Assembly (NCBI GenBank): GCA_023823795.1 | Contig: CP085710.1 | Coordinates: forward strand, 4,862,001 to 4,926,000 | Direction: 5' to 3' | DNA length: 64,000 nucleotides | From: Bacillus sp. F19 | GTDB lineage: Bacteria > Bacillota > Bacilli > Bacillales > Bacillaceae | Shown here: positions 43,342 through 64,000 of the stretch, piece after piece | Layout: every line of letters starts with the position of its first letter | How positions within the stretch are numbered: the stretch's first letter is position 1 | The notes under the pieces: generated by a model | What the model was told of the DNA's origin: nothing | Database searches by the model: none | The model's input: only the letters and a program-made list of their open reading frames with translations | Made by a program: the position numbers and the translations under genes

Positions 43342-43475
43342 TCCGTTTCATCTCCTTCCGCCCTGAATCGTTTGTCGAAACAGAGTTATCAATTCCAGAA
43401 GATTGACTTCCGGAAAAGCACATAAAAAAATTATAACAAGCTTCCAATTTATTTGCAACTAGTTCGGAATAAAAT

Positions 43476-54489: not shown

Positions 54490-54519
54490 GAAAAACTCGG
54501 AAGATTTCCCGAGTTTTCA
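54490..54519 (-). terminator. telA terminator
   Basis: Minus strand AAACTCGG and CCGAGTTT pair around an 8-base loop, followed by TTCT. The 54235-54490 gap upstream of rpoE holds no gene. Confidence 0.7.
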
Positions 54520-55605
54520 GCGGCTGTTTTTGATTTGTTTAAAGTTGTTCTGAAGCTCCTGAAGGCGGACGCGGCCTTGTTCGCGAAGCTGTTTGTTCTC
54601 GTCTTCAATGGCCTTTGTTTCCTGCATTCCTTTTAGGATAATGCTCCAGGTTTCTTCTATTGTTTCCATTTTAATGCTTGGACTTCCTGAAAGTCTCGCA
54701 ATATCAACACTTTGCTTTGATATATTTTGAGCGTTACGGACAAGCATTTCATTTGTGCGTTTTTCAAGCTCGTTCATAGAATCGGCCACAAGCTTCTGTC
54801 TTTTTGCAGCAATCGCGTTGATAAGACCTGTTTTAAAGATTGGAATGGTTGTGACGAAAGCAGAGTTGATTTTTCCTATCAGCTTTGTATTTCCTCTTTG
54901 CAGAAGCCGTATTTGCGGCGCTGACTGATAGGCCACTTGTTTGGCAAGCTCCAGGTCATAAACTCTTTGCTCAAGGACTTCTACCGCATTTCGCATTGTA
55001 TCAAGCTCCATTTGTGCAAGCTGATCCCCTGATGCTGCTTTTGTTTCTAAAGCCGGAAGCTGCTGCTTCAGTTCAGCTGCTTTCATATCTCCGGCCACGA
55101 TATATTTTTCAAGCTCCATATAATATTGGAAGTTTTGTTCATACAGCTGTTCAAGTGTATTGGTTGAACGCTTCATTTCATCTTCATATTTGACGATTTC
55201 CATGTACACTTTATCAATTTCTCCGCCCATCGTCTGGTACTTGGACATGATTTTCTCTACCATCTTCTGACCGCGGTTAAAGATTTTCTTCATAAACCCT
55301 TTATCTTCTGCAAAATCCTTTGGATCAAAGCGGTCCATGATTTTGCCAAGATGTTTGAGGAGAGCGCTTGACTCTTCCATACTGCTTGACTGCATCGTAT
55401 TTAATATTTTTCCTGAAAAAGCGGAAATTTCATCCGCCGGTGCTTTTCCATATTCAAGCATGCCGACTTGATTGCGGTAGTCAATCATTTGCGCAAGCTT
55501 TTGAACTTCCGGCTCTTTTTGCAGCTGCACTTTCATATTGTTCGGCCCTTGCTGCAGAACCTCTTCCATTTGATCCACTTTACCCAGTCCTGGTACTTGA
55601 GACAT
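54517..55605 (-). CDS. yceH: TelA-family toxic anion resistance protein (YceH)
   Basis: 362-aa soluble, helix-rich protein of the TelA/KlaA family. The N-terminal MSQVPGLGKVDQMEEVLQQG is followed by long amphipathic helices, KKIFNRGQKMVEKIMSKYQTMGGEIDKV near residue 105 and NKLIGKINSAFVTTIPIFK-like core near residue 240. The family is linked to tellurite and cell-envelope stress through the Ter system, molecular role unknown. It follows yceG by 26 bp, and the pair matches the end of B. subtilis yceCDEFGH. Confidence 0.9.
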   Translation of the reverse strand: MSQVPGLGKVDQMEEVLQQGPNNMKVQLQKEPEVQKLAQMIDYRNQVGMLEYGKAPADEISAFSGKILNTMQSSSMEESSALLKHLGKIMDRFDPKDFAEDKGFMKKIFNRGQKMVEKIMSKYQTMGGEIDKVYMEIVKYEDEMKRSTNTLEQLYEQNFQYYMELEKYIVAGDMKAAELKQQLPALETKAASGDQLAQMELDTMRNAVEVLEQRVYDLELAKQVAYQSAPQIRLLQRGNTKLIGKINSAFVTTIPIFKTGLINAIAAKRQKLVADSMNELEKRTNEMLVRNAQNISKQSVDIARLSGSPSIKMETIEETWSIILKGMQETKAIEDENKQLREQGRVRLQELQNNFKQIKNSR

Positions 55606-55631
55606 ATTGGTATCCTCCCTCGATAATAAAA

Positions 55632-57239
55632 TCAGAACATTTTGCGGATGAATTTTTTCAGCCGCGAAGGCTCCTGAAACTCTTCTCCAAAGCTCATTTC
55701 ATCCAGCCAATGACTGTCAAAATATCGTTCATCTACAAAGTTTTCTATGTCATTATGACCCGGCGGATTATAAATCACAATATCCAGCCCGAATTCATTC
55801 ATTAAAAGCAGAATGGCTGCATCAGCACGTGTCATAAAGCCGTTATTCTCATTATTGTAAAGCACAACCCGCGGCACATATTGAGAGTAATCGAAATTCT
55901 GCAGCAGCTTGATCATGCTGTTTGGAATATTCACTGCTTGATTAAACAAATATAATTGCAGATCATATAAGCTTTCCTGCTCTAGTTTTTTCAATTTAGG
56001 ATGTGCGCAATATCTCGAGATTGCTTCAGCAATTCCCTTTTGCAGGCCGGTTGGAAGGTTGCTGTATCTCCACCAATGGCTGTTCATCATTTTTTCAGCC
56101 TGCAGCTCCTGCTTTTCACCCAGGGCATTTTGATAATGAAAGTGAGGGTTTCCTTTGGCTTCCCAAGTAAAAGGAAATTGTTTAATAACCTCTGCATATT
56201 CATAATCGGTCAAGTCCTGAATCTTGCTCCAGTAAGCCCGCCGGTTTTTTGTCATCCCAAAAATTTTTGAAAAGATGGACGGTATATTCACTGTATTGTT
56301 CCGGACTTCAAAATTCGGCCTTAAAAATGCTCTTTCTTTTATAAGAATGAAAAGTTCGTCGTATGTTGTTTTCAGCGTAATGGCATTAGGAGAATAATTT
56401 CTGAATTGCCAAGGCTTATAAAGCAGGGAATCATCTGAATGAAGAACCTGGTCGATTTCTTTTGATGCTTTGTAAGCAATAGTAGAAGTTCGCTCAGGTC
56501 TTGTTTTTGGAAACGCTGTCAGCTGGTGAGTCCCCGGATAGCGAATGATCTTGCTGTTCGCTTCATCCGGATCTGCATCAGCCAGTATATCTGTTCCCTC
56601 CGGATGGGCAATAATGACGTCACAGCCGAAAAGAATAAGGAACTTAAGAAAGGATTGCTCGCTTGCCGTCGCATTTCCATACCAGAAAAACGCTGGTATT
56701 CCGTCTTCTTGCCTGGCAGTTTTTTCAAGTTCTTTATATAAATGATTCCACGTCCATTTAACAAGATCCACAATGACTCTTCTGAAATCTCCTGTTTCAT
56801 CCTTGCGCTCCTCGAAAAAGGGAGTCAGCACTTTGATGACACAAGCTCTCAAATGGCGGTTCAATTCAGGATTTTTCAGCATTGGAAGCAGCTGGTCACG
56901 GTCCATAAAAGCAACAAACCGGTTCACTGACAGTTTTTCTTTTCCATGCAGAATTAATAAGTTCTGAATCGCCTGGAATTTTTCCTGCGGAATGGTTTTG
57001 TCTAGATTTTCACTGAGAAAGTGAAGGTCCAGTTCGTCGTTATGAACAAGATCAAAGAGCATTTGAAAATACTCATCTTCCACTAAAGGTGTTCCCAGCA
57101 TGCGAATGGCTATTTGAGGGATTTTCATTTCAGAGGGAGTATTCACAAATCCCGAGCGCTCAGGTAACGGCTGAAAAAGAAGCGCTTGCCAATCTGTTTC
57201 AAGATTAGCCGCTGCTACTGGCTGATATGTTCGAATCAT
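55632..57239 (-). CDS. yceG: YceG-family component of the Ter stress system
   Basis: 535-aa soluble protein matching B. subtilis YceG; the family is described as a putative component of the Ter-linked biosynthetic module. Features visible: MLGTPLVEDEYFQMLFDLVH near residue 50, FFWYGNATASEQSFLKFLILFGCDVIIAHPEG near residue 185, and VLYNNENNGFMTRADAAILLLMNEFGLDIVIYNPPGHNDIENFV near residue 460. The last segment looks like a Rossmann-like fold. Catalytic activity is not established. Start MIRTYQPVAAAN follows GGGAGAGAG. Confidence 0.88.
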   Translation of the reverse strand: MIRTYQPVAAANLETDWQALLFQPLPERSGFVNTPSEMKIPQIAIRMLGTPLVEDEYFQMLFDLVHNDELDLHFLSENLDKTIPQEKFQAIQNLLILHGKEKLSVNRFVAFMDRDQLLPMLKNPELNRHLRACVIKVLTPFFEERKDETGDFRRVIVDLVKWTWNHLYKELEKTARQEDGIPAFFWYGNATASEQSFLKFLILFGCDVIIAHPEGTDILADADPDEANSKIIRYPGTHQLTAFPKTRPERTSTIAYKASKEIDQVLHSDDSLLYKPWQFRNYSPNAITLKTTYDELFILIKERAFLRPNFEVRNNTVNIPSIFSKIFGMTKNRRAYWSKIQDLTDYEYAEVIKQFPFTWEAKGNPHFHYQNALGEKQELQAEKMMNSHWWRYSNLPTGLQKGIAEAISRYCAHPKLKKLEQESLYDLQLYLFNQAVNIPNSMIKLLQNFDYSQYVPRVVLYNNENNGFMTRADAAILLLMNEFGLDIVIYNPPGHNDIENFVDERYFDSHWLDEMSFGEEFQEPSRLKKFIRKMF

Positions 57240-57330
57240 CTCTCTTCCCTCCCCCAAAAGTCACTTCCAGCTATCTATTTTTTATTTTTACGTTTCATTC
57301 GAGCAGAAATTTACCGTTCCAGAAAAGAGC

Positions 57331-57540
57331 CTATCTGCATGTTCTCTTTTCGCCAAATACGTGCTGCATTCCTTCACCCGTTACAACCCATGTTTTCCCG
57401 AATTTCCGAATGGTGCCTTTAGGGAATTCAATCCGTTTACGCAGGGTAGAATTGTCTATTCCCCATTCCCGGCAGGCCTGAGTGGAACTCATAATATTCT
57501 TATCCAATAAATTTGTATGGTTCTTTTCTAATGTAACCAA
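57331..57540 (-). CDS. Small helix-turn-helix protein
   Basis: 69 aa. The core SSTQACREWGIDNSTLRKRIEFPKGTIRKFGKTWVVTGEGM is a compact HTH with a wing-like end, similar to short DNA-binding proteins often annotated only as helix-turn-helix. A TTG start is preferred because GGAG stands 8 bases before it; a GTG overlaps that site. It lies between yceG and the HAD gene in the same direction, so it may regulate the locus. Confidence 0.6.
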   Translation of the reverse strand: MVTLEKNHTNLLDKNIMSSTQACREWGIDNSTLRKRIEFPKGTIRKFGKTWVVTGEGMQHVFGEKRTCR

Positions 57541-57642
57541 TACGTTCACTCCAATAATATCTAAAGAAAATCAATCTTGCAGCCATTTGACATTGGAACA
57601 CCTATTTTATTATTGTACCAGCACAAGGTAAATATTTCTATT

Positions 57643-58458
57643 TTACAACTCAGCTGGTGCCGGGCTTACCTTCGCCAATATGTTTTCCAAAATTTCTTCG
57701 GAGGCAAAAATCCCATTTTTGTTCGTTCTTTTAATCGTTTCTACTAAACGTGTATTTGATTCGCCCAATTCTCCGTGCAGCGGTGAGAAGGCATGATCTG
57801 CACCTTCTAGCATGCATAGATCTAGCAGTGAATCCCCCGCAGTAATGACCGTTTTTGCACCAATTGCTTCTTTGACATATGCAACGGCATCCCATTTGTT
57901 GATCGGCTTTGGTACAAAGTACAGCTTTCTTCCTTGCAGAGAGTGCTTCCAGCCATGGCGATCGAGCCACAGGATAAATTCCTGCAGTCGCACTTCAGGG
58001 ATGAGAGTGCGATCGATTATATTATATAGAAAGAGATTTTCAGCATTTTTTTGTTTTAACACCCAATCATCTGCTGCAATCTCCTGAAACTTGAGGGAAA
58101 CCTCTTCTAAACTTGTGCACTCATTTTTCATCAGGTTTTCTAAATGTTCTTTCCACTCCGAGTCGAGCTTCCCGTTCTTGAACACATGTCCACCATTGCT
58201 TGTGACAGCATAGCCTGGGATGATTTCTTCCTGGAAAACAGTGATGCGCTCGTATTGTGAGGGTGTTCTTGTAGTAACGGGCACAAATGTCATTTGCTCC
58301 GCAATTTCCTTCAGCATGGAAATCGCTTTTTTCGTCATAAATGAGATTTCCTGACCTTCGAGCGTTTCGATCAGGCGAATATCAGATTCGCTCACCGGCT
58401 CCCGGAAGGACCTTCTTGAATAAATGAGTGTTTGATCCAGATCACTTGCAAAAATCAC
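57643..58458 (-). CDS. HAD-superfamily phosphatase of the Ter biosynthetic cluster
   Basis: 271-aa HAD hydrolase. Motif I FASDLDQTLIYSRR at the start, motif II VPVTTRTPSQYERI near residue 60, the lysine in KPINKWDAVAYV near residue 190 and motif IV ITAGDSLLDLCMLEGADHAF near residue 208 are all present, with a cap domain between motifs II and III. The sucrose-phosphatase-like layout suggests a small-molecule phosphate as substrate. It lies 12 bp after a phosphoribosyltransferase gene, suggesting it removes phosphate from that enzyme's product. Confidence 0.85.
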   Translation of the reverse strand: MIFASDLDQTLIYSRRSFREPVSESDIRLIETLEGQEISFMTKKAISMLKEIAEQMTFVPVTTRTPSQYERITVFQEEIIPGYAVTSNGGHVFKNGKLDSEWKEHLENLMKNECTSLEEVSLKFQEIAADDWVLKQKNAENLFLYNIIDRTLIPEVRLQEFILWLDRHGWKHSLQGRKLYFVPKPINKWDAVAYVKEAIGAKTVITAGDSLLDLCMLEGADHAFSPLHGELGESNTRLVETIKRTNKNGIFASEEILENILAKVSPAPAEL

Positions 58459-58470
58459 AGATTGTTCCTC

Positions 58471-59589
58471 CTAGTTTAGGGGCTTAATAATCCCGCAGCA
58501 TGAATATGACATGTTCTTATATTCGATTACCGGTACGTTTCTTTCTTTTGCAAGCAGGAAAATGTGTTCAAGATCCTTATTGTTTAAATCTTTCACAAGA
58601 ATTTTCCAAGGTATTCTGCGCAAAAGTACACGAGTTGTTTCTCCGACTCCAGGTTTAACATGATGAATATTTTCTATGCTGAAATCATCCTGAATTTGTT
58701 TAATATCCCGGATGCCTTTCCAAGTCGGTTCTTTATCCTCTGCCTCAAGCTTTAACACTTGCTCGCCGATTTCACCCGAAACATGCGCAAACTCTGAAAC
58801 GACAACGTCAATAAAATGATTCGAAACATCCTCAGGAAGCAGTTCAGAATAATATTTAGCCCCGTGAAAATCATCAGGTCCAATGAACTGGTCATTTAAT
58901 ACGGTCCTGCTGACCAATCCTGAAACGGTAGAATTTAAGCAGGCACTTGGAATTAAGAAGTCTTCTCTGGTTCCGTAAATCTCCGTGCAATAGCCAGGAT
59001 CTGCCAAGACAGCAAGTGAATCATTGATATTCATTTCGTATTTCCTGTTGAAGCCGGCGACAGCCTCTGTCAGTTCTCTCGTAATAGCGCCTTTCCCAGT
59101 CCAGCCGTCCACAAACTGCACATGATCATTCGGATGATTCTGAGCAATATATCTCATCGCATTTTCATCAATGCCGCGGCCTCTGACGATGGAAACACTA
59201 TAATGAGGAACGTTAAGATTATAGGTTTCTAGCAGATATCTCTTCATCAAAATGCCGATCGGCGTACCTGCTCTTGCAAGTGATACAAGAACGATGCTGC
59301 GGCCCTTCTCTTTAAGGATGCGCTCTGCAACGGCTCCTACTGCAATCGCCAGTTTTTGTTTGTACATATCTAAGGAATGATGAAAAAGCTGTAAATATTC
59401 ATCTGTCGGCTTGTATTCAATCGGAAGCATTTCTGAGTAATGGGTTCCGCTTTGAACAGCCTGCTCTCTTTCTAAGGTTGATTTTTCAAGGCTGGCCTGA
59501 CTCAGGTCCTTTAATAAGAAAATAACGTCCTGCTCCGAATAGCTTCCCATTGCTGCCGGTTTTGGCAATTGCTGCTCCACCTTATTCAT
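58471..59589 (-). CDS. Phosphoribosyltransferase-like protein with PELOTA domain (StiP family)
   Basis: 372 aa. The first 270 residues form a divergent phosphoribosyltransferase (StiP/PRTase_1 type): SIVLVSLARAGTPIGILMKRYL near residue 100 and the PRPP-loop-like HVQFVDGWTGKGAITREL near residue 155. The last 85 residues (TTRVLLRRIPWKILVKDLNN, EHIFLLAKERNVPVIEY) match the PELOTA-type RNA-binding domain seen in this family. Databases often label it a cysteine protease StiP; the sequence supports a PRTase fold better. ATG preferred over a GTG three codons earlier; it overlaps the next enzyme's stop (ATGAATAA). Confidence 0.82.
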   Translation of the reverse strand: MNKVEQQLPKPAAMGSYSEQDVIFLLKDLSQASLEKSTLEREQAVQSGTHYSEMLPIEYKPTDEYLQLFHHSLDMYKQKLAIAVGAVAERILKEKGRSIVLVSLARAGTPIGILMKRYLLETYNLNVPHYSVSIVRGRGIDENAMRYIAQNHPNDHVQFVDGWTGKGAITRELTEAVAGFNRKYEMNINDSLAVLADPGYCTEIYGTREDFLIPSACLNSTVSGLVSRTVLNDQFIGPDDFHGAKYYSELLPEDVSNHFIDVVVSEFAHVSGEIGEQVLKLEAEDKEPTWKGIRDIKQIQDDFSIENIHHVKPGVGETTRVLLRRIPWKILVKDLNNKDLEHIFLLAKERNVPVIEYKNMSYSCCGIIKPLN

Positions 59590-60949
59590 CTGCTGCACTT
59601 CCTTTTTTGTTTGTACTGAAAAAGACGAGATTGATGATTGGAAAAACTCTTTTCAGCTGGTTCATTATTGATCTCATATTGTCACTTAAAACAGCACGTT
59701 CAAAAAAGACAAAGACTTCGTCGTATTGACCTTGTTCTGCATTATAAAAGAAATTAGCTGTTTCTCCGTCTTCCGGGTTTGTAAAAGGATAACCGCTTTT
59801 CACTGCGTAATCTTCCCTTTCAACCGGGTGAATCGGACTTCTGGTCGTTGATTGATAGAAGATCCCTTCTCCCATAAAGGATGCCGTTTTCATAGGCACA
59901 TACATAAATTCCCCTGTACCAAGGCATAGAGTTTTCTTTCCTTTACGGAATTCAAGGAGCTTGGCTGCTGCACTTTGACAATAATCATCGACACTAAGCT
60001 GCTCCTGATCTGAAAGACCGAATCTGCCTGTGTGTATTAAATAGGGTGCAGAAAGAAGTTCAGAAGAATACGAAGTCGTATCATTACTAGATATATAGAT
60101 TTCATTTATCTCAGATTCAAACGCTCGTTCTGATCTTTTTTCAGCCTGGTTCTCTGCTACCGGATCCCCGGTTGTTGAAATAAGACCTGTTATTAAAGAA
60201 ACCGTATGGATCGCAACACCAAGTCTTTCTTCTGTTTCTCTGAATCTTTTTTGGTCCTCTTCTGAACGCCAATCTAGAATAGACACGACTGTATATTCAC
60301 GGCGAGGATACTTCGATTGGATAGATTCAATGATATTCAGAGCCGTTTTACCTGTTGTTACTTCGTCATCCACTAAAACGATCGGACGGTCATTTTCAAA
60401 TAGACTCTCGTCCACATAACAGCGGTGAGAGGTCGCATGTGAGTGCTCTTCTTCAAAATTGATGATGGAATCCATTCCAGATACCATTTCCCTTGTTGTA
60501 TGAAAAAAAGAAGCATTTTCAAAGTTTTCAAAGACTGCATGTCCAAGGGCAGTTGCTGTTTCAGCGAATCCTATAAATAGAGCCTGATCGTTTAATGTGT
60601 GGCGGTACTCACTCTTTTGAATCGCTTCCCCGTTTAAACCAGCAAGAATTTGGTCTCTTTCAGGATGTGTTTCTCCGTGTACAACCTCCATATATCTTGC
60701 TGCAAGAGCTTGTCCAGTTAAAAGAGCAAGCGCAGGATCAACTGGAATATGTTTGCCGAGGACTTTGCTCACAAATAAGAAGCCGCGTTTTTTATTAATC
60801 CGTGCTGCCATTGAAAACAGATTTTCCAAAGGAAGAAGATAAGGATTGCTTGTCAGTTCAATTTCAACAGAAAGCTTTCCTAATAAATCAAATGTATAAT
60901 TGCTCGTTTGTTGTTTCGCTGATAAGGTCAATAAATGATTGCTGCTCAT
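59582..60949 (-). CDS. Phosphoribosyltransferase with TRSP domain
   Basis: 455 aa. N-terminal phosphoribosyltransferase with PRPP loop RPIVLVDDEVTTGKTALNII near residue 188; C-terminal TRSP domain from about residue 285 with HTGRFGL, CLGTGEFMYVPM and the naming motif YQSTTRSPIHPV near residue 372. Predicted to attach a ribose phosphate to an unknown base-like substrate. Start ATG has a GGGGTG site and lies inside the preceding lyase gene, a 62-bp overlap, so the two are tightly co-translated. Confidence 0.85.
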   Translation of the reverse strand: MSSNHLLTLSAKQQTSNYTFDLLGKLSVEIELTSNPYLLPLENLFSMAARINKKRGFLFVSKVLGKHIPVDPALALLTGQALAARYMEVVHGETHPERDQILAGLNGEAIQKSEYRHTLNDQALFIGFAETATALGHAVFENFENASFFHTTREMVSGMDSIINFEEEHSHATSHRCYVDESLFENDRPIVLVDDEVTTGKTALNIIESIQSKYPRREYTVVSILDWRSEEDQKRFRETEERLGVAIHTVSLITGLISTTGDPVAENQAEKRSERAFESEINEIYISSNDTTSYSSELLSAPYLIHTGRFGLSDQEQLSVDDYCQSAAAKLLEFRKGKKTLCLGTGEFMYVPMKTASFMGEGIFYQSTTRSPIHPVEREDYAVKSGYPFTNPEDGETANFFYNAEQGQYDEVFVFFERAVLSDNMRSIMNQLKRVFPIINLVFFSTNKKGSAADE

Positions 60950-62105
60950 GGAACACCCCGTATATTTTTGATTTCAAGATGATTTTCCGCGCCCAATTGT
61001 AATGGGGTTTGATTTCGTTCATTTTATTTGAAAACTCACTTCTGATGACGCCGTTATAAGATTGCGCCTGATCAAGGATCGACGATGCATCCAAATATTC
61101 TTCTTTTGTCACGGCATTCAGCGCGTTTACTATTTTAATATGCAGCGGATGAATAATGGTCTTGCCTACAAGGCCATTCGTATTATCAAGGACGAGTTCA
61201 TGGATTAATCCATCGTCATAACGGTCGATCAGGTTTGCTCTGAACTCAAGACCCTCGGTGCCGTATGCCTTCTGAAAAGGCGTTTGTCTGATTTGAGGCT
61301 TTAAAATCCGCTGGCCTCCGCCAAAATATTCCCAAACGGGTCCTGAAATGACATATTCTTTTTCACATCTTCCAAACACATTAATGATGTCTGTAATGCA
61401 GTCACGAATGACGGAAATATCATAAATGGTTGTATCGCGGCTTCTTCTGATGCCGAATAATCCTGATAAATCCGTTCCGCCGAGGCGGACATTCAGAACG
61501 AGTTCATAGTAATCATCAAGAATCTCTTTGATGACGAGCAATTCTGCCATACGCGACTCTTTATAAATAATTTCCTTCGTCTCTAAAATTGGCATCCCAT
61601 ACAAAGTGACAGAATAAAGAGCGGCGATCTCCTGCAGGGCTGCATAATAGCCTCTTCCATTTTCAGAAGAGAATTTCGGGAAGACAAACCCGCTTAAAAG
61701 CTGGATATGATGCTTAAGCTTTGAGGCAAGGCGTTTCATTTGGTCTTCATTTCTGATCCGCACAAAAATAAGCGGCAGATTTCTCTGATCAAACTGGCCT
61801 TTTAAGATGCTGTTTGAGATTACTTCGATTTGCCTGACTGTATTTTCTTCCGCTGATTCTACTTCCGTATCACCGATTGAATCCTCAAGACAAATAACCA
61901 TTGAAGTTAATCCTTCATGCTTTCCATTAAGAAATTTACCAGATAGTACATCGCTTGAAATAGCTGTCCGATTACCAGGCATGTAGAGAGTCGCACCTAA
62001 CGTATAGGCCAATGTTTCCCGTTCTGTTTCTTTTGAAAAATGAATTGGTTCGTATAAAAAGATTTCATTTCGCTTTTCTTGAGATAAATATTGAAAATGC
62101 TTCAA
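60888..62105 (-). CDS. HpcH/CitE-like carbon-carbon lyase of the Ter cluster
   Basis: 405-aa TIM-barrel lyase of the HpcH/HpaI-citrate lyase beta superfamily (C-C_Bond_Lyase branch). TLYMPGNRTAISSDVLSGKF near the N-terminus, VICLEDSIGDTEVESAEEN (the metal-binding Glu-Asp), LIFVRIRNEDQM and GFVFPKFSSENG match the barrel strands. Unlike CitE it has a long C-terminal extension. Start is TTG preceded by GGAGGAACAAGC. First gene of a four-gene set ending with the HAD phosphatase. Probably makes or splits a carbon skeleton used by the two PRTases. Confidence 0.85.
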   Translation of the reverse strand: MKHFQYLSQEKRNEIFLYEPIHFSKETERETLAYTLGATLYMPGNRTAISSDVLSGKFLNGKHEGLTSMVICLEDSIGDTEVESAEENTVRQIEVISNSILKGQFDQRNLPLIFVRIRNEDQMKRLASKLKHHIQLLSGFVFPKFSSENGRGYYAALQEIAALYSVTLYGMPILETKEIIYKESRMAELLVIKEILDDYYELVLNVRLGGTDLSGLFGIRRSRDTTIYDISVIRDCITDIINVFGRCEKEYVISGPVWEYFGGGQRILKPQIRQTPFQKAYGTEGLEFRANLIDRYDDGLIHELVLDNTNGLVGKTIIHPLHIKIVNALNAVTKEEYLDASSILDQAQSYNGVIRSEFSNKMNEIKPHYNWARKIILKSKIYGVFHEQQSFIDLISETTNEQLYI

Positions 62106-62161
62106 GCTTGTTCCTCCATTCAGACCCTCTGCGTGATGTACTAGGTGGTAAATTGCTTATT

Positions 62162-62410
62162 AGAAAAGCGGAGGCGCCTGGTTAGCTCCGACAGACAGAT
62201 AAGAAATCACCCGAAAAGTCCGGGTTTGACTTTTTGGGGGATTTTGTTCTGGCCGAGGAGTTAGGCGCCGCAGCTGGACAATCGAAAAGCGGAACCGCCC
62301 TGGGCAGACTCGGGCAGGCAGATAAGGATCCGGCAGAAAAGGCGCTTTATGCCTTTACTGCCGGAGCCGTTCTGACCGAGGGGCTTGAGCGGTGCCTTCA
62401 AACTTTTCCT
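62162..62410. repeat. Two tandem copies of the ~120-bp structured repeat
   Basis: Copies at about 62162-62284 and 62285-62405. The first has GGCGCCTGGTTAGCTCC near its start and GGAGTTAGGCGCC near its end, which pair almost fully. They fill the space between terD and the lyase gene and hide any promoter of the lyase operon. Confidence 0.85.
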
Positions 62411-62419
62411 TTTTAAAAA

Positions 62420-62447
62420 GGCGCGTTGTTTATAAAAACAACGCACC
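62420..62447 (-). terminator. terD (second) terminator
   Basis: Minus strand GGTGCGTTGTTT pairs with AAACAACGCGCC (one G-T), followed by five T. It separates the terD genes from the lyase-PRTase-HAD genes. Confidence 0.85.
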
Positions 62448-62474
62448 TCTCATCATGATTTTACTGTCCGGTTA

Positions 62475-63053
62475 TTAAATGTCTAAACCGTAGTCTTTAA
62501 CAAGTGAACCTAAGCCGCCCTGGTAGCCGCTTCCGATTGCATTGAATTTCCATTCAGCGCCGTGACGGTATAACTCGCCAACTACAACCGCTGTTTCGAT
62601 TGAGAAATCTTCTCCTAAATCGTAGCGGATTAATTCTTGATTGCTCTCTTCGTTTAAAATGCGTACATATGCATTTGAAACTTGTCCAAAGTTTTGGCTG
62701 CGTGATTCAGCATCATGGATCGTGATTGTGAACGCAATTTTATCTATTGTTGATGGTACTTGAGAAAGGTTTACTTTGATTACTTCATCATCGCCTGTGC
62801 CTTCTCCTGTACGGTTGTCGCCAGTATGCTCAACAGAACCGTTTCCGCCTATAAGGTTGTTGTAGAAAATGAAATCTGCTTCGCTTGCAGCTTTGCCGTT
62901 TGCATCTAATAGGAAAATAGACGTGTCCAAGTCAAAATCATTTCCGCCGTCATACTTGTTTGTGTCCCAGCCAAGACCTACTAATACTTTTGATAAACCA
63001 GGATTTGATTTTGTTAAATCGATTTTTTGACCTTTAGATAAACTGATTGCCAT
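62475..63053 (-). CDS. TerD-family calcium-binding stress protein (192 aa)
   Basis: Canonical Ter[55 protein letters not shown] (acidic Ca2+-binding loop near residue 80) and [19 protein letters not shown]. Close to B. subtilis YceC/YceD/YceE in length and motif spacing. TerD proteins respond to tellurite, envelope and sigma-W-type stress; the cytoplasmic role is unknown. Downstream of a longer paralogue by 40 bp. Confidence 0.95.
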
Positions 63054-63093
63054 TTCGATTCGACTCCTTTTATGTATAAGTTTATTTTAATAA

Positions 63094-63702
63094 TTATGAG
63101 TGACGATTTGCAATTTCAGTGATTGATGCATCTTTTGTGCCTGATCCGACTGCTGCGAATTTCCACTCGCCGCCGTGACGGTAAATTTCTCCCGGAATAA
63201 GAGATGTTAAGCCGGAATAGTCATCAGACAGGTTGTAATGGACAAGTTCTGTTCTAGTTGCTGAATCCACAACACGGATAAACGCATTTTGAATCATTCC
63301 GAAATGCTGCTTTCTTTGTACAGCCTGATAAATGTTTACAACAAACACAATCTTATGCACGTTGGGTGGCACTTTGCTGAGATCGATTAAAACCTGCTCA
63401 TCGTCTCCATCGCCATCACCTGTTAAGTTGTCGCCTGTATGTTTGACAGAACCGCATTTGCTTGTAAGGTTGCCGAAATAAATCACACTTTTCTTGTCAA
63501 GCAGAAGGTCATTTTCATCCAGCATCAATACAGATGCGTCACAATCCACATTGCTTCCGCCTCCGCCGCCGAATAAACCGCCAAGCATTCCGCCGCTTTT
63601 TTTCTGTACAGGGTCCCAGCCAAGGCCTACCATTAAATTCTTCAGGCCCGCATTGCCTTTTGTCAGATCAATTTTTTGACCCTTTTGTAATGTAATTGCC
63701 AT
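63094..63702 (-). CDS. TerD-family protein with glycine-rich insertion (202 aa)
   Basis: Second TerD paralogue: [27 protein letters not shown], then an insertion with MLGGLFGGGGGSN around residue 40, VDCDASVLML and the calcium loop HTGDNLTGDGDGDDEQ near residue 95. The insertion and DCDAS in place of DFDLD distinguish it from its neighbour. The start ATG follows GAGGGAGAGTGAAGAA; 21 open codons upstream are excluded. A palindrome-rich promoter lies before it. Confidence 0.94.
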   Translation of the reverse strand: MAITLQKGQKIDLTKGNAGLKNLMVGLGWDPVQKKSGGMLGGLFGGGGGSNVDCDASVLMLDENDLLLDKKSVIYFGNLTSKCGSVKHTGDNLTGDGDGDDEQVLIDLSKVPPNVHKIVFVVNIYQAVQRKQHFGMIQNAFIRVVDSATRTELVHYNLSDDYSGLTSLIPGEIYRHGGEWKFAAVGSGTKDASITEIANRHS

Positions 63703-63766
63703 TTCTTCACTCTCCCTCTTGGGTAATGTGGAAACTTGCAAGTCTGAAACCAAGACCAAAGTCACT

Positions 63767-63812
63767 TTTATATAACAAATGGACCATTTGGTCTACCATC
63801 ACGATACCGTGA
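63767..63812 (-). promoter_or_regulatory. terD promoter with overlapping palindromes
   Basis: Minus strand TAGACC, 17 bp, TATAAA is a plausible SigA promoter about 65 bp before terD. The spacer holds two nested inverted repeats, AAATGG-A-CCATTT (63777-63789) and GACCA-TT-TGGTC (63782-63793), and TCACG-ATAC-CGTGA (63799-63812) lies just upstream of the -35. This looks like an operator arrangement. Confidence 0.55.
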
Positions 63813-63921
63813 CCACAAGTTTAATACTACCAACAAAATAACAAAATTCAAAATAAAAACCTTTTTCAAAGGTGTTAATCTTTCATACGATTTAAATAAA
63901 AAAAAGTTTCATATTAAATAC

Positions 63922-64000
63922 TTACAAAATGATTTCTTTTTCTAGGAAAGTCGCTTTAATATCAAGCTTCATTTCTTGCTTCTCCACATTTTCCCCAAGA
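63922..64000 (-). CDS. C-terminal end of an upstream gene, cut by the window
   Basis: The minus strand reads LGENVEKQEMKLDIKATFLEKEIIL before a TAA. The rest lies outside the window. Given its position it is probably another gene of the Ter locus, but 25 residues are too few to name it. Confidence 0.5.
   Translation of the reverse strand, partial: LGENVEKQEMKLDIKATFLEKEIIL

Follow-up and report, generated by a model that had tools for sequence, protein, structure and literature searches.

A branch of metabolism that is linked to Ter proteins and yields a nucleoside-like metabolite was reportedly predicted by Anantharaman, Iyer and Aravind in 2012. Here, we analyze a gene cluster of Bacillus sp. 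F19 (CP085710.1) that combines enzymes of such a branch with terD, yceG and telA genes. All coordinates refer to a stretch of 64,000 nucleotides (nt) of this sequence, called the window in the following; the ATP-grasp gene of the cluster runs past its base 64000. In the 2012 proposal, as related in a review of jumbo phages (PMC7824862), phosphoribosyltransferases (PRTases) work with HAD enzymes to produce a nucleoside-like signal, which TerB and TerD might sense, and TerC and TelA are placed at the membrane. Ter genes are found on chromosomes, on plasmids and in some phages; for the biosynthetic branch, papers still cite the 2012 prediction. The biosynthetic cluster of Klebsiella is called putative and its link to TerC unclear (PMC8115787). 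When supplied in trans, terZ-F confers tellurite resistance on Escherichia coli (PMC8115787), and terCD has been given as the minimal combination for this trait (PMC8779313). The ter genes alone thus suffice for tellurite resistance there, and the biosynthetic cassette can be dispensed with. A lactococcal orf53-telA-telB-telC locus has likewise been linked to tellurite (PMC13109727). A literature search, with most subscription journals outside it, recognised neither an identified product of the cassette nor experimental work on its enzymes.

The locus in the window is confirmed as a real and intact member of the known Ter-linked biosynthetic operon, and we think it likely that this Bacillaceae version has a sigma-W-type promoter and a cassette making a ribosylated small molecule that serves an envelope response involving TerD, YceG and TelA. 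In the direction of transcription, the genes encode an ATP-grasp protein, two TerD proteins, a C-C bond lyase, a PRTase_2-TRSP protein (PRT), a StiP-PELOTA protein (StiP), a HAD phosphatase, an HTH_59 protein, YceG and TelA, all on the minus strand:

63922 to 64000, minus strand, 3' end of the ATP-grasp gene within the window (whole gene 63922-64989; L005:5922-6989), ATPgrasp_Ter 160 bits
63886 to 63911, minus strand, sigma-W-type or extracytoplasmic function (ECF)-type promoter-like site TGAAAC-N16-CGTA between the ATP-grasp gene and terD, pattern match
63700 to 63826, minus strand, conserved leader up to the terD start codon, with the inverted repeat TCACG-N4-CGTGA at 63799-63812, from genus alignments
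63094 to 63702, minus strand, terD-1, Pfam TerD 252 bits
62475 to 63053, minus strand, terD-2, Pfam TerD 285 bits
62160 to 62394, minus strand, dispersed repeat, one copy, in the gap from terD-2 to the lyase gene, outside the system, 69 genomic places
60888 to 62105, minus strand, CitE-like C-C bond lyase, Pfam C-C_Bond_Lyase 405 bits
59582 to 60949, minus strand, PRT, Pfam PRTase_2 245 bits and TRSP 140 bits
58471 to 59598, minus strand, StiP with PELOTA_1, Pfam StiP 369 bits and PELOTA_1 118 bits
57643 to 58458, minus strand, HAD-superfamily (Cof/S6PP-type) phosphatase, Pfam Hydrolase_3 33.9 bits and S6PP 30 bits (cut-offs 20.9 and 20.3)
57331 to 57540, minus strand, HTH_59 DNA-binding-type protein of 69 amino acids (aa), Pfam HTH_59 53 bits (scanned as 57340-57540)
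55632 to 57257, minus strand, yceG, Pfam YceG_bac 334 bits in two stretches
54517 to 55605, minus strand, telA, Pfam TelA 345 bits

The start codon of terD-1 is the ATG at 63702, with the listed open reading frame (ORF) of 223 aa reaching further upstream to a GTG; for yceG, translation more likely starts from the ATG at 57239 than from the listed TTG. A preliminary description of the window had named the lyase, TRSP PRTase, PELOTA/StiP, HAD, YceG, TelA and TerD families, every one of which scores above its Pfam cut-off, and had correctly placed the enzyme set between two terD genes and yceG-telA. The genes it named all stand, and it overlooked the HTH_59 gene between HAD and yceG. It had also described the four enzyme genes as overlapping or closely spaced, which fits lyase/PRT and PRT/StiP with ORF overlaps of 62 and 17 nt; the lyase gene, to be added here, is 369 bases away from terD. 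About 235 bases of this gap come from the dispersed repeat: parts of 62150-62440, chiefly bases 47-280 of it, find matches at 69 places in the same genome. Several copies of the repeat stand in tandem with a step of about 122 bases. Of the genes to be looked for past 64 kilobases (kb), the ATP-grasp gene was found upstream of terD; terC is absent from the locus, and the four TerC genes of the genome lie elsewhere. Beyond the ATP-grasp gene the extended contig encodes an IcmF-type methylmalonyl-CoA mutase, where the ter genes stop. The same genome has two more terD loci, one with terD and a TerF-like vWA gene (L006:9065-10332) and one with a TerD-TerB fusion (L007:8013-9443). The interpretation of the cassette in the preliminary description is the published 2012 prediction and not new. 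It is supported in part, namely in its families, in the co-inheritance of the enzymes with Ter genes and in the ATP-grasp partner; the sequence of lyase, PRTase and HAD steps, and a sensing or deploying part for TerD, TelA and YceG, are hypotheses of that description. New here are the reassignment of StiP, subject to the caveat given below, the ATP-grasp gene and the HTH gene, the close if imperfect co-inheritance, the promoter pattern and a tractable host for laboratory work.

With the 2012 branch the locus shares the PRTase-TRSP, PELOTA PRTase, HAD, C-C lyase and ATP-grasp proteins together with TerD and TelA; it differs from that branch by the extra HTH_59 gene, the lack of TerC at the locus, only two terD genes and a leader seen in the genus only. 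The yceCDEFGH genes of B. subtilis resemble it in their terD genes, yceG and telA, and a putative sigma-W-type promoter stands in the window locus as well. B. subtilis has TerC (MeeF/YceF; PMC10550928) and lacks the three cassette families searched, whereas the window locus has ATP-grasp and cassette genes and no TerC. That B. subtilis is without the cassette, as stated in the preliminary description, agrees with our control genome: the three families searched (PRTase_2, StiP and C-C_Bond_Lyase) gave no match, and TerD, YceG, TelA and TerC all matched. The order lyase-PRT-StiP-HAD-YceG-TelA is the same on plasmid pFI430 of Lactococcus cremoris MG1363 (L147:4550-14672), followed there by three TerD genes and one for a DUF475 protein, so that its terD genes lie downstream, unlike those of the window. 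This plasmid is typed as mobilizable, and the stretch yielded no ATP-grasp or HTH match. A compact, intact Bacillaceae cassette running in one direction, together with a plasmid copy of the same order in a laboratory strain of Lactococcus, makes the product a practical target. The ter locus on Klebsiella and Escherichia plasmids also has a putative biosynthetic cluster, beside terZABCDEF, but consists of two operons on opposite strands (PMC8115787), whereas the window locus has one direction.

The enzymes of the cassette are well preserved. Lyase, PRT and StiP are free of internal stops in all eight genomes of the genus. The loop of PRT for phosphoribosyl pyrophosphate (PRPP), VDDExTTGxT, looks canonical, and D194, D195, E196, T198, T199, G200 and T202 are invariant (15/15). 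In the HAD protein, D6, D8, T62-T63, K188, D209 and D213, residues which we take to have catalytic roles, are invariant as well (14/14). Searches against PDB sequences matched the lyase to human CLYBL (E 0.0011) and the ATP-grasp protein to 2pn1; for StiP, PRT-TRSP and YceG they returned no relative of use. The ATP-grasp protein (355 aa) has as its best Pfam family ATPgrasp_Ter (cut-off 29.1 bits), which Pfam describes as 'ATP-grasp in the biosynthetic pathway with Ter operon'. A strong match to this family adjoins terD in 8/8 genus genomes and in genome G090, and one in G075 sits away from ter genes; the profile matches all 101 genomes surveyed below, mostly via long frames of more than 1000 residues, which are taken for carbamoyl-phosphate synthase. 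In two loci HTH_59 is fused to HAD (L045, 5880-6911; L101, 8072-9100).

StiP is labelled 'cysteine protease' in Pfam (PF11202) and at NCBI, and plasmid annotations follow suit (18 of the 20 rows listed). Its structure model, with a predicted local distance difference test (pLDDT) score of 93.8, has PyrR and HGPRT among its Foldseek matches and is classed by them as a type I PRTase fold, so that we are confident in a PRTase-type predicted fold. Among the aligned StiP sequences no cysteine is invariant, and no cysteine-protease fold is named among the 50 rows of structural matches listed, which are those of Foldseek only. The protease assignment was rejected on the grounds of the predicted fold and the lack of an invariant cysteine. 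A comparison of the StiP and PRT profiles gave a probability of 0.3%, so that sequence alone does not show StiP to be a PRTase; single StiP members match Pribosyltran at E 0.11 and NAPRTase at E 0.26, too weakly to count. Class I PRTases usually carry two adjacent acidic residues in the PRPP loop; in StiP, D164-G165 takes this place in 37/37 sequences, and with this invariant D-G in place of two acids it may not be a second catalytic PRTase. An RNA-binding-type PELOTA_1 domain was found in all 12 StiP proteins scanned, and the 12 weak matches of StiP to PDB sequences are ribosomal or RNA-binding proteins (L7Ae/eL8, S12, L24; E 0.17-0.89). Among the matches listed for the named loci, from which very near records may be missing, the closest StiP proteins are 67-69% identical and come from Bacillus sp. 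SJS, Metabacillus mangrovi, M. fastidiosus and Filibacter tadaridae. Renaming StiP from a protease to a PRTase-fold protein would redirect work on the product and affect many annotations.

The cassette is closely co-inherited with ter genes. Six families were searched in 101 genomes, the own genome plus relatives. PRTase_2 above the cut-off (leaving out three genomes below it, G073, G088 and G092), StiP and a strong lyase match (E 2e-110 or better) occur in an identical set of 35 genomes. TerD and YceG above the cut-off (leaving out one genome below it, G076) share an identical set of 46, which contains all 35 cassette genomes; by genus, 10 cassette genera lie inside 11 TerD genera, of 46 genera. 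TelA is commoner (91 genomes, 90 above the cut-off).

Among 20 stretches from relatives, 14 genomes have the cassette, with lyase-PRT-StiP in identical order in all of them; HAD follows StiP in 13 of the 14, and yceG-telA come next in 13, being on another contig in G048. An HTH gene stands between HAD and yceG in L032, L033 and L039. A form common in other genera places three terD genes and TerC ahead of the lyase gene; in the three genus genomes viewed (window, L032, L033), an ATP-grasp gene and two terD genes take that place, and TerC is absent from it. ATP-grasp upstream of terD occurs together with TerC in L034, L059, L061, L064, L069 and L078. A scan of genomes with the StiP alignment covered at least 597 stretches, and the best 80 of at least 592 StiP relatives were taken as named loci. 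All four enzymes are encoded in 76 of these 80, always on one strand (median span 4.5 kb), with the order lyase-PRT-StiP-HAD in 74 of the 76 complete loci; two incomplete ones (L125, L127) are short pieces. With the 15 loci shorter than 20.4 kb set aside, all four enzymes and TerD are present throughout (65/65). Over the 80 loci, TerD was found in 78, TerC in 65, yceG in 37, ATP-grasp in 22 and telA in 36, the last with a profile that misses divergent TelA proteins: it passed over a recurrent Paenibacillus neighbour that Pfam identifies as TelA. PRT and StiP form one ORF in 17 loci, six from Firmicutes and 11 from Actinobacteria; in the latter, with their high content of guanine and cytosine, frames were taken from stop to stop and PRT scores are lower. 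StiP relatives also occur on 2568 of 72556 plasmid records, most frequently from Klebsiella. A 65-kb IMG/VR contig (L132) encodes ATP-grasp, PRT, HAD, StiP, lyase, TerB, TerC and several TerD proteins.

Several observations weigh against the explanation favoured here. Eleven genomes keep ter-yceG-telA without the cassette and, with tellurite resistance reported for ter genes by themselves, the cassette resembles an accessory to ter function. Five genomes (G062, G067, G075, G095, G099) have lyase-family matches that pass the Pfam cut-off, with best E values of 9e-16 to 2e-7, and no other part of the cassette; these matches are probably CitE-like paralogues and were left out of the count. HAD is missing in L046, and StiP-HAD occurs without lyase or PRT in L075 (9956-12997; ATP-grasp present, no TerD) and L090 (7776-12127; TerD and TerC present), where 10 kb upstream and 2-4.5 kb downstream, free of undetermined bases, leave no gap to explain the missing enzymes. 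Two proteobacterial plasmids, one of Bradyrhizobium with PRT-HAD-StiP and one of Vibrio with HAD-StiP, show no TerD within 20 kb in annotation tables that are incomplete, and the hidden Markov model scan was limited to 6 kb. Acinetobacter phage ME3 has PRT-HAD-StiP with TerD and TerC and no lyase in the stretch. Moreover, genomes of relatives do not count as independent samples, StiP similarity guided the choice of the named loci, and the repeat between terD and the lyase gene means that a single transcript is not assured. The link of the enzymes to ter genes in relatives, as put forward earlier, is therefore close and not perfect.

The TGAAAC-N16-CGTA site, 184-209 bases upstream of the ATG of terD-1, is the sole match in the window, for which shuffling gives an expectation of 0.20 (20 of 100 shuffled sequences contain a match). 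With the spacing relaxed to TGAAAC-N15-17-CGT, the pattern stands upstream of the first terD in 13 of 18 loci, among them that of the window. In the named loci it does so in 31 of 74, where 400 bases of the same loci would be expected to hold about 0.01. For B. subtilis yceCDEFGH, sigma-W, sigma-B and sigma-M are listed (PMC3498285). In the eight genus genomes, a second promoter-like block lies downstream of the sigma-W-type site, followed by the leader with TCACG-N4-CGTGA, of which each genome has one copy (8/8, at most 3 mismatches; none in a reversed control). Six of the eight sequences, folded singly, gave related, not identical structures with z-scores of -1.4 to -2.7. One of 24 pairs changed on both sides, and covariation was not above shuffles, 64 of 500 reaching the observed score. 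Across 100 loci the leader model found the genus members L032 and L033 only, besides two matches at E of about 4, and an Rfam scan found no family within the locus. With covariation and fold scores this weak, we do not take the leader for a proven RNA structure; it may be a candidate RNA structure or equally a DNA operator, perhaps for the HTH_59 protein.

How the promoter is used, in which order the reactions run, what class of product arises and what it does for the cell we infer as follows. A sigma-W-type envelope-stress promoter would drive the terD pair, and the remaining genes would probably be reached by read-through. Lyase, PRTase_2-TRSP and ATP-grasp proteins would build a ribosylated small molecule from PRPP, and HAD would remove phosphate from a phosphorylated intermediate. 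StiP, with its predicted PRTase-type fold and RNA-binding-type PELOTA domain, might either supply another PRTase-like subunit alongside PRT or have a regulatory role. The compound made would then be a ligand or precursor for an envelope-associated response of TerD, YceG and TelA.

An anti-phage system with the product as an infection signal is possible, if unlikely. Phage and plasmid copies exist, a review of jumbo phages proposes the idea (PMC7824862), and deletion of terC in Klebsiella gave larger plaques (PMC12054061). However, the phage effects reported there concern ter genes and not the cassette enzymes, PADLOC on nine proteins returned one marginal match (PRT, PRTase_III-A, E 0.00048), and the window locus sits in ordinary chromosomal surroundings, between rpoE/pyrG-like genes and icmF. 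It is distinctly doubtful that the cassette modifies a macromolecule (transfer RNA, DNA or a membrane molecule), with PELOTA bringing RNA and the PRTase-fold proteins exchanging or adding a base in the manner of base-exchange enzymes. The constant presence of PELOTA_1 in the scanned StiP proteins and the ribosomal and RNA-binding character of their weak PDB matches agree with this, but lyase, ATP-grasp and HAD resemble small-molecule chemistry, and no RNA- or DNA-modifying enzyme was recognised by eye in the 22 most recurrent unassigned neighbour clusters, five of which were scanned with Pfam, two without a family. We regard it as a long shot that StiP is a PyrR-like sensor whose pocket, with the second acid of the PRPP loop invariantly gone, binds the nucleotide product of the cassette without catalysis and whose PELOTA domain binds RNA, such as the leader before terD, which would give feedback of the product on ter expression; if true, many proteins annotated as 'cysteine protease StiP' would be RNA-binding metabolite sensors. 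A proteolytic stress system around StiP as a cysteine protease, which draws on the PF11202 description and the plasmid annotations, is very improbable in view of the predicted fold and the alignment. Chance neighbourhood is contradicted by the order that recurs across families and decay by the intact frames of the genus genomes and the invariant motif residues, so that even with a repeat element inserted in the terD-lyase gap we give next to no chance to either.

Away from the operon, the window contains an L31-Firmicutes ribosomal protein leader (Rfam RF03156) at 43352-43385 on the minus strand.

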